From the NCBI GenBank assembly GCA_018268315.1, contig JAFDWU010000005.1, positions 1 to 64,000 on the forward strand: 64,000 bases of DNA, read 5' to 3'. Positions 42,978 to 45,118 of the stretch are shown here, piece by piece (the first letter of the stretch is position 1; each line of letters begins with the position of its first letter). A program made the translations under genes and the position numbers. The notes under the pieces are model-generated. The model saw only the letters and a program-made list of their open reading frames with translations. It had not been told where the DNA came from and searched no databases. The DNA comes from Armatimonadota bacterium (GTDB lineage: Bacteria > Armatimonadota > Fimbriimonadia > Fimbriimonadales > Fimbriimonadaceae).

Positions 42978-42996
42978 GGGTTTCTCCTGGTTGGCA

Positions 42997-43027
42997 ACAA
43001 AAAACCCGGCCTGAATCAGGCCGGGTT
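42997..43027 (-). terminator. Attenuator terminator
   Basis: AACCCGGCCTGA and TCAGGCCGGGTT form a 12-bp perfect stem with a 1-nt centre (43003-43027), followed on the minus strand by TTTTTTG. It lies between the Tyr/Phe leader peptide and the ATG at 42977, so readthrough is needed to express the enzyme. A competing antiterminator can form from 43015-43022 with 43032-43042. Confidence 0.85.
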
Positions 43028-43031
43028 AGTA

Positions 43032-43047
43032 GGCTTGCTGATGAAGC
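43032..43047 (-). promoter_or_regulatory. Candidate antiterminator and protector segments
   Basis: On the minus strand ATCAG and GCC (within 43032-43042) can pair with GGC-CTGAT (43015-43022), which is the inner part of one terminator arm. GCTTCAT (43041-43047) can instead pair with ATGAAGC at the start of the leader peptide (43112-43118). The two pairings share bases and are mutually exclusive. This is a model based on base complementarity only. Confidence 0.5.
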
Positions 43048-43052
43048 GTGAC

Positions 43053-43118
43053 CTATCCCCCGACCCCTTCGGGATAAAAATAATAGCTAAACGTATAGTT
43101 CAGGGCGGACAGCTTCAT
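43053..43118 (-). CDS. Tyr/Phe-rich leader peptide (attenuation)
   Basis: This is a 21-residue frame whose core reads YTFSYYFYPEG: four Tyr and two Phe in eight residues, all with TAT/TTT codons. It precedes an intrinsic terminator and the gene for prephenate dehydratase/DAHP synthase/chorismate mutase. This is the layout of ribosome-mediated attenuation in enterobacterial phe and trp leaders. Stalling when charged tRNA-Tyr or tRNA-Phe is scarce would favour antitermination. The start lies only 12 nt after the -10 box and has no Shine-Dalgarno, so it is probably read from an almost leaderless transcript. Confidence 0.75.
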   Translation of the reverse strand: MKLSALNYTFSYYFYPEGVGG

Positions 43119-43130
43119 TGCGTAAGGAGC

Positions 43131-43159
43131 AGTGTAACAAAGTTCGGCCCAGATCCCAA
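43131..43159 (-). promoter_or_regulatory. Promoter of the aromatic attenuator operon
   Basis: On the minus strand TTGGGA (43154-43159) and TACACT (43131-43136) are 17 nt apart, a good sigma-70-type match. Transcription would start about 5-6 nt before the leader peptide ATG at 43118. Confidence 0.65.
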
Positions 43160-43195: not shown

Positions 43196-44026
43196 CTACT
43201 TCAGGCGCACAGTAGTGAACGGAATCGAGTTGTCACCCACTGCTGGCGGCTGGCCATCCCACTTTTCGATCGCGGCGCGCTTATTCTCGATTCGCTTTAG
43301 CTGAAGGATCGAATCACCCTGCTGGCTCAGCATCTCGTTCATCTGCGCCTGCTTATTTGCGTTCGTAAGAATGGTTTGCTTATCGATCTTCGCCTGCTCA
43401 AGCCGGTTCTTTGCAACCCCAAGCTCGTTGAACTTGTTGAGGCGCTCGTTGACCTTTGCAAGCACGTCTTCGTTTGGATAGACCTCACCCACGTACACTT
43501 CGTCCACCGTGATGCCGTATTCATCCATGATCGGCCGAAGCGCCTGCTTCACTTCGCCGCCGATACCCGCGCGATCCTTGGAGGTCACGTCGAATATCGA
43601 CTTCTTACCGGTCACGCAATTGAGGCAGTAGCTTGTGTAGTAGCGAATGAAGGTGCGTTGAATGAAGTCGAGGTCCTCGGTGCCGAAGCTTGCGAACATC
43701 TTGTCGACGTTTCCAGCATCTACGTGCCAAGCGACGGTTATGTCCATCGGGAGCTGCCCACCTTCGCTTGTGCTCGCCACGATGCTGTCGTCAACCGCTC
43801 GCTCACCCTCTTTTGCGTTACGCACGTAGGTGGCGTTGCGGATGCTGGTTGGGTAAACGATGATTCGCTGGTTCCACCCGCGATAGACCACTTGCGGGGT
43901 TAACAGCTTCTCGGAGATGCCGCTGGAGCCGTCGAACTTTACGCCAACCGAGGCTGGCGGGATTTGAACCATGCACCCGCCCATCAGCGCAAGGCAGAAG
44001 AGAAGTGGTAGCCCCTTCCCTTTCAT
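43196..44026 (-). CDS. SPFH/Band 7 domain lipoprotein
   Basis: This 276-residue protein has a lipoprotein signal (LLFCLALMGGC) and an SPFH (prohibitin/stomatin-like) domain: VQIPPASVGVKFDGSSGISEKLLTPQVVYRGWNQRIIVYPTSIRN, then DITVAWHVDAGNVDKMFASFG. A C-terminal coiled coil (NERLNKFNELGVAKNRLEQAKIDKQTILTNANKQAQMNEML) follows. It overlaps the upstream SPFH gene by 4 nt and likely forms a hetero-oligomeric membrane assembly with it. An SPFH lipoprotein is less usual than the helix-anchored type. Confidence 0.85.
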   Translation of the reverse strand: MKGKGLPLLFCLALMGGCMVQIPPASVGVKFDGSSGISEKLLTPQVVYRGWNQRIIVYPTSIRNATYVRNAKEGERAVDDSIVASTSEGGQLPMDITVAWHVDAGNVDKMFASFGTEDLDFIQRTFIRYYTSYCLNCVTGKKSIFDVTSKDRAGIGGEVKQALRPIMDEYGITVDEVYVGEVYPNEDVLAKVNERLNKFNELGVAKNRLEQAKIDKQTILTNANKQAQMNEMLSQQGDSILQLKRIENKRAAIEKWDGQPPAVGDNSIPFTTVRLK

Positions 44027-44916
44027 CGGCCCCTCGGGACTGGCGTTACGCCGTTGCCGGAGCCGTCAACAACAAGAGTTTGTCCTGGCTGCGGTTGGAT
44101 GGGTGAAAGGTGGCCATTCCACTTTCGGATGGCGTCTGCTTCAAGTTCAAGGTTTAGCATTTCTAGGCTCTTTTGCTGCGTCTTGTTAGCGGTAATTGAT
44201 CTTGCCTGCCGTTCGGCGTCGGCTCGGACGAGTTCGGCCGCGCTGTTGATCTGGGCGATCTGGCTCTCTAGCTGGGAGATGCCGATTTGGGTGTAGGAGT
44301 TGATCGAGCTGTAGACCCGTTGCTCGGTCTCCTTGGTGAGATACGGTCGTAGAATCATCGCTTGGTCGATGGTTATTCCCTTCTTTTCAAGGCGATCCCG
44401 CAGCTCTTGGGCGAGCTTCTCGCTGGCTTCCTGGCGCTTGCTGCCGATAAGCTGGAATACCGTGTACTGGCTGCCGATGCTGCTTGCGCCGTCCCTTACC
44501 GCCCGGCGTATGTGGTTCGCCTGAATCTCCTCGATCGTTATCGGACCAAACGTGTTGAACACCGTCCGCACGTTCTCCTTCTTCACGCGATAAACGATGG
44601 AAATATCGAAAGTAGTATTGGCGTTGTCGCTAGTGGTGATCAAGATGCCATCAGCCGCCTTGACCTCGCCTTCGCTTGCATCCTGGCTATAGACGGCGTT
44701 CTGGGGCTTTGTTGGGTATTGATACAGCTGCTGCCGCCAGCCTACAAAAACGGACTGCGGCTCATAGACCTTGTCAAGAATGCCGCGCGAGGCATCGTAG
44801 ATTAGTCCGACGTGGCCGGCTTCAATCCAGACCGTGTTCTGTCTCCAGTAGAGGACGCCAATGCCGACGGTGCCCAGCACGAATACGCCGATGGCGAATG
44901 AGCGTTTAAGCTTCAT
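44023..44916 (-). CDS. SPFH/Band 7 domain membrane protein
   Basis: This 297-residue paralogue of the next gene is anchored by an N-terminal helix (SFAIGVFVLGTVGIGVLYW). The SPFH core reads VWIEAGHVGLIYDASRGILDKVYEPQSVFVGWRQQLYQYPTKPQNAVYSQD and DISIVYRVKKENVRTVFNTFG. The coiled-coil end contains QLESQIAQINSAAELVRADAERQARSITANKTQQKSLEMLNLE. I chose the ATG at 44916, which overlaps the upstream stop, over a TTG at 44934. Together with the small membrane protein upstream it forms a three-gene operon. Confidence 0.87.
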   Translation of the reverse strand: MKLKRSFAIGVFVLGTVGIGVLYWRQNTVWIEAGHVGLIYDASRGILDKVYEPQSVFVGWRQQLYQYPTKPQNAVYSQDASEGEVKAADGILITTSDNANTTFDISIVYRVKKENVRTVFNTFGPITIEEIQANHIRRAVRDGASSIGSQYTVFQLIGSKRQEASEKLAQELRDRLEKKGITIDQAMILRPYLTKETEQRVYSSINSYTQIGISQLESQIAQINSAAELVRADAERQARSITANKTQQKSLEMLNLELEADAIRKWNGHLSPIQPQPGQTLVVDGSGNGVTPVPRGR

Positions 44917-45118
44917 CGTCGGTGTCCTCTTCAAGCAGGTCGTTCAGTTCTTCTTCCGCCTGGCGGCGGTAAGGCTCATCGGCTAACTTGCGCTGTCGTT
45001 CCAGCTCTTCCCTCTTGGCCCTTTGTTCCTGTAAAGGCATGACCACAAAGACGTAGAACCCTGCCACGAGGATGGCGCCAAGCAGCACGATCGTAAGAAT
45101 AATCTTGTAAACCAGCAC
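44906..45118 (-). CDS. Small single-helix membrane protein
   Basis: This 70-residue protein has one membrane helix (IILTIVLLGAILVAGFYVFVVMPL) and a long charged helical tail (QEQRAKREELERQRKLADEPYRRQAEEELNDLLEEDTDDEA), probably cytoplasmic. It starts with GTG. It overlaps the SPFH gene downstream and may be an accessory subunit of that complex. I do not recognise a named family. Confidence 0.65.
   Translation of the reverse strand: MLVYKIILTIVLLGAILVAGFYVFVVMPLQEQRAKREELERQRKLADEPYRRQAEEELNDLLEEDTDDEA

Follow-up and report, generated by a model that had tools for sequence, protein, structure and literature searches.

A probable tyrosine/phenylalanine attenuator upstream of a fused aromatic biosynthesis gene of Bacteroidota ancestry in a member of the Fimbriimonadaceae

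The window analysed here is a 64-kb stretch of DNA (64,000 nucleotides) whose host belongs to the Fimbriimonadaceae, the Fimbriimonas family of the Armatimonadota. On its minus strand, a short open reading frame (ORF) and an intrinsic terminator lie ahead of a gene fusing prephenate dehydratase (PDT), ACT, DAHP synthase and chorismate mutase (CM) domains. The features of the locus, in minus-strand order, are:

43131-43159, minus strand: candidate promoter, TTGGGA (43159-43154), a 17-nt spacer and TACACT (43136-43131), from the sequence
43118-43053, minus strand: leader peptide ORF of 21 codons encoding MKLSALNYTFSYYFYPEGVGG, with ATG at 43118 and TAG at 43053
43066-43059, minus strand: putative antiterminator segment GGGUCGGG, leader codons 18-20, from folding and complementarity in 36 relatives
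43027-43003, minus strand: intrinsic terminator with an 11-bp stem (AACCCGGCCTG/CAGGCCGGGTT), loop ATT and a T-run extending to 42999, from a terminator scan
43025-43018, minus strand: putative antiterminator partner CCCGGCCU within the terminator 5' arm, from folding and complementarity
42984-42988, minus strand: Shine-Dalgarno sequence AGGAG of the structural gene, from the sequence
42977-40953, minus strand: structural gene for a PDT-ACT-DAHP synthase-CM fusion of 674 aa, from Pfam, homologues and trees

Pfam placed the PDT domain of the fusion at residues 3-183, ACT at 197-233, DAHP synthase I at 326-558 and chorismate mutase II at 589-667. A profile search of the window genome returned one PDT match and one CM_2 match, both inside the fused gene. 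The native PDT gene of the family is CM-PDT-ACT (one example scanned by Pfam, L015). With both single matches located in the fusion, the acquired gene has replaced this native CM-PDT gene. Of 291 Armatimonadota genomes searched, the 290 besides the host lacked the fused enzyme. Full-length fused homologues of 52-53% identity do occur in a few Bacteroidota. A scan of genome contigs yielded one partial relative, and a viral scan yielded none.

In a tree of the PDT part, the window gene fell on a long branch (0.84) in a clade with the rare Bacteroidota fusions (100/97 support). This fused clade joined a split Bacteroidota clade (97/91), apart from the native genes. The DAHPS-CM tree likewise placed the window gene and the fused rows with Bacteroidota and not with the natives, their branching order being unsettled. 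On this phylogenetic evidence, the fused gene is horizontally acquired and of Bacteroidota ancestry.

Beside the fused gene lie two adjacent SPFH/Band_7 genes (43196-44934), a pair whose order is kept in 12 other Fimbriimonadaceae genomes. The window pair shares about 45-59% identity with those of its relatives, where it occurs without the fused gene. In the 1.5 kb covered at these loci there was no DUF4349 neighbour, and so no exact empty insertion site could be delimited. The fused gene also matches local GC and GC3. The shared Band_7 neighbours and local base composition argue against contamination, which is unlikely, and for an old, adapted acquisition.

The leader ORF carries six Tyr/Phe codons in eight (Y8, F10, Y12, Y13, F14 and Y15). 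The 64-kb window contains 2,575 ORFs with a length of 8-40 codons, of which it alone had at least five Tyr/Phe codons in nine, and none of 46,351 ORFs simulated from a Markov sequence attained its six in nine. All six core codons end in U (P ~0.0015). U-ending Tyr/Phe codons are a minority in the neighbouring genes, which, unlike the leader, prefer UAC and UUC. No Shine-Dalgarno sequence was found ahead of the leader ORF; Shine-Dalgarno initiation is largely absent from Bacteroidota. A short Tyr/Phe-enriched ORF thus precedes an enzyme gene for Tyr/Phe synthesis, the arrangement sought in an attenuator, and the leader is presumably translated in the host.

The terminator sits between leader and structural gene, 25 nt beyond the leader TAG. 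Its hairpin has a computed energy of -20.4 kcal/mol, and no other terminator-like site within the 4.3 kb scanned is as strong. An initial annotation of this DNA described it as a perfect 12-bp terminator; the terminator and its T-run are there, but the stem consists of 11 base pairs closed by a loop of 3 nt. It probably terminates transcription in vivo. As a Band_7 gene ends ~170 nt upstream on the same strand, the terminator could merely close the Band_7 operon, the leader being a chance ORF. This is very improbable given a Tyr/Phe density unequalled in the window or the simulations, and given that the leader-terminator unit is retained before the homologous enzyme in relatives.

The promoter letters TTGGGA-17-TACACT reported by the initial annotation are present, but they match only 8 of 12 consensus bases, and comparable sites occur at ~0.8 per kb per strand, which is chance level. 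A stricter promoter scan listed no promoter at the leader region. The extended -10 (TGT-TACACT) is the sole feature favouring this candidate, so that the promoter and transcription start site are tentatively placed here. Reckoned from the candidate promoter, the leader would be nearly leaderless.

To model the switch, we folded nascent RNA ending at the terminator 5' arm while masking the ribosome footprint codon by codon. Constrained folding of the shortest nascent RNA gave a pairing probability for GGGUCGGG:CCCGGCCU of about 0.87 to 0.97-0.99 while the A site stood anywhere from Y8 to F14, and with RNA six bases longer the range was 0.79-0.99. Pairing was zero with the A site anywhere from Y15 to the stop. 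Other footprint sizes kept the switching point within codons 12-15, where the Tyr/Phe run ends. In the model, the antiterminator is thus exposed by a stalled ribosome, masked by an advancing one and exclusive with the terminator. Once the full terminator is present it wins at equilibrium, so the decision would be kinetic, as in classical attenuation. In the fold model, the leaders of the fused relatives L038, L039, L040 and L068 switched like that of the window; the L041-type leader gave no clean switch.

Nascent RNA without a ribosome also preferred the antiterminator in the fold model. No stable protecting 1:2 hairpin was predicted in the leader RNA, and the expected UAUCCC:GGGAUA hairpin had a probability <0.01 in free nascent RNA. 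As a model result, the lack of a stable protecting hairpin predicts that untranslated RNA is read through. Such a hairpin favours termination without translation in trp but is not obligatory for every attenuator.

A different antiterminator had been put forward in the initial annotation, namely a local hairpin in which AUCAG..GCC pairs with GGC..CUGAU; pairing of AUGAAGC at the leader start with GCUUCAU would release or sequester it. The complementary letters are present, and the fold with the ribosome at the stop codon contains part of the hairpin. The 7-bp AUGAAGC:GCUUCAU match is, however, about what chance would give in 150 nt. Moreover, a stalled ribosome would not cover the hairpin and hence would not directly control it, and in relatives the complement of the terminator arm is located in the leader tail, corresponding to GGGUCGGG. 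We consider the local hairpin improbable and retain GGGUCGGG:CCCGGCCU as the predicted antiterminator.

We also compared the regions upstream of related genes, as the initial annotation had advised. Tyr/Phe leaders and terminators precede six of seven Bacteroidota fused genes (L038, L039, L040, L041, L068 and L148, the last being the upstream region of L069). The leader of L039 is the least Tyr/Phe-rich of these, and the seventh fused gene, L042, has no recognisable leader upstream. Among 38 Bacteroidota operons with split genes, 32 likewise had a Tyr/Phe leader, such as MNTFATYFFFFFYYFYFSNEVKREFVYVR and MKFNNAYFYGYYFYFTSKSRD. In a strand control run through the same pipeline, the same 38 Bacteroidota loci gave 30 matches in the sense direction and none in antisense.

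The stretch following the Tyr/Phe codons complemented the terminator 5' arm beyond shuffled sequences in all 37 measurable cases (36 relatives and the window). All 37 reached p<0.05 and 31 reached p<=0.01, although a combined p-value is not to be read literally because the rows are related and the shuffles preserve base composition alone. The window's own pairing was marginal (p=0.048) owing to the high G content of its leader tail. The paired letters vary among lineages (GCCGGGACT, CGGGGCC, GAGGCTTT, CGAGACC and CCGGAGG). The attenuator is thus conserved across related operons with compensatory changes between leader tail and terminator arm, and the comparison of leader, stop, terminator and compensatory pairing came out positive.

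Many aromatic genes employ other sensors, and here a T-box, a riboswitch, an RNA-binding protein or another such untranslated RNA or factor acting in trans could sense Tyr/Phe, the leader being incidental. We regard this as barely plausible, since conservation centres on a run of Tyr/Phe codons in a reading frame and no Rfam family reached its gathering score in the window region. In seven relatives, nothing but a tRNA did so. At E<=10 the best Rfam candidate in the window was the Pseudomonas P9 sRNA, far under its cut-off and apparently a generic terminator match.

From sequence comparison and fold modelling, we conclude with high confidence that the locus carries a ribosome-mediated Tyr/Phe transcription attenuator, which a Bacteroidota donor very probably contributed along with the gene. 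A shortage of charged tRNA-Tyr or tRNA-Phe would make the ribosome stall on the UAU/UUU run at codons 8-14. The stalled ribosome would leave GGGUCGGG free to pair with CCCGGCCU during transcription, and this pairing would block the terminator and let RNA polymerase proceed into the fused gene. When both charged tRNAs are plentiful, the ribosome would reach the stop codon and cover GGGUCGGG, allowing the terminator to form. Expression is thus expected to respond to Tyr/Phe supply. The central proposal of the initial annotation, a ribosome-mediated Tyr/Phe attenuator before a trifunctional aromatic enzyme, is upheld by the leader, the terminator, the exclusive pairing and their conservation.

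The attenuator itself could instead have evolved in place, by convergence, after the gene was acquired. The N-terminal half of the leader gives no clear alignment with the leader of any donor. Short leaders also evolve recurrently, convergence having been argued for Firmicutes leader peptides (PMC2965389). We nevertheless think this origin unlikely, as leaders already stand before most of the other fused genes and split operons, while no Tyr/Phe-rich short ORF was found upstream of 40 native Fimbriimonadaceae PDT genes. The window core YxFxYYFY and tail PEGxGG also resemble FSFPEGGG of L146. More generally, the window and donor leaders have the same layout and a similar core, their sequences being short and divergent. 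This divergence would be compatible both with descent from a donor leader and with re-evolution after transfer. Co-transfer of the leader with the gene, making the attenuator horizontally acquired too, is very likely. Whether the whole enzyme-plus-attenuator unit crossed from Bacteroidota to Armatimonadota, replaced the native CM-PDT and still works via a near-leaderless leader, with readthrough as its untranslated default, is in our view evenly balanced.

Native attenuation of this kind was not found at two other genes of the window genome, a further point against convergence. There is no Trp-rich ORF upstream of its trpE and no such leader upstream of its pheS. A terminator-like hairpin (CCCCG...CGGGGCGTTTTT) does lie just upstream of trpE (L150). 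It possibly reflects attenuation by some other mechanism, or marks where a transcript from upstream ends.

To the initial annotation, a Tyr-plus-Phe control element of this kind in a distant lineage appeared undescribed. The element is not an innovation peculiar to such a lineage: the gene sits in a Bacteroidota clade, the same control is common in Bacteroidota operons and a prediction dates from 2005. Table 7 of Song et al. 2005 (PMC1173090) lists a putative attenuator before pheA>hisHb>aroAIbeta-aroQ>tyrA in Bacteroides thetaiotaomicron, an entry predicted from Merino's attenuator database. As in the window, that attenuator precedes PDT and DAHPS-CM genes, which are homologous to those of the fusion. 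The window differs in that its enzyme is a single fused protein and its host a member of the Armatimonadota; the table gives no leader peptide for its putative attenuator. A transcriptome of Flavobacterium psychrophilum, also in the Bacteroidota, gave strong clues to leader-peptide attenuation of amino-acid operons, backed by 5' transcript data (PMC9723704), and the part of that report concerned with these leaders names neither Phe/Tyr nor the operon.

Like E. coli pheA and trp, the window has regulatory codons followed by mutually exclusive antiterminator and terminator. It differs from these in mixing Tyr and Phe codons, in placing the antiterminator segment in the last leader codons and in having no predicted stable 1:2 hairpin, and from known leader families in having no Rfam leader-family match above threshold. 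Leader-peptide attenuators outside Proteobacteria have been described in Actinobacteria (PMC1262725) and for Firmicutes hisS (PMC2965389). These share the mechanism but involve other amino acids, genes and lineages. Within the open-access literature, we found no description of these Tyr/Phe leader peptides as such, nor of any in Armatimonadota. An attenuator of a Bacteroides pheA operon was already predicted in 2005, and what stands out here is the cross-phylum acquisition and the breadth of such leaders in Bacteroidota.

If the proposal is true, a metabolic gene and its translation-dependent RNA switch were transferred between phyla. Such a transfer would show attenuators to be potentially portable, their only requirements being a ribosome, RNA polymerase and charged tRNAs. 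A unit that crossed phyla and still works would also imply close transcription-translation coupling in both. Because Tyr/Phe leaders are so widespread in Bacteroidota, this coupling could be tested there at the scale of a phylum, and the leaders could serve as ready native reporters for aromatic amino-acid starvation.

Some of the Bacteroidota loci showed more elaborate arrangements. Two serial Tyr/Phe leaders precede the PDT operon in L116, L118 and L135 (genomes G363, G457 and G678, respectively), each apparently with its own terminator, forming tandem attenuators. Both leaders of L135 passed the complementarity test. At two fused-gene loci an ORF lies between attenuator and enzyme: a small unidentified one in L041 and an apparently DNA methyltransferase-like one in L069/L148. 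Control of the fused enzyme may be uncoupled or extended by these intervening ORFs.
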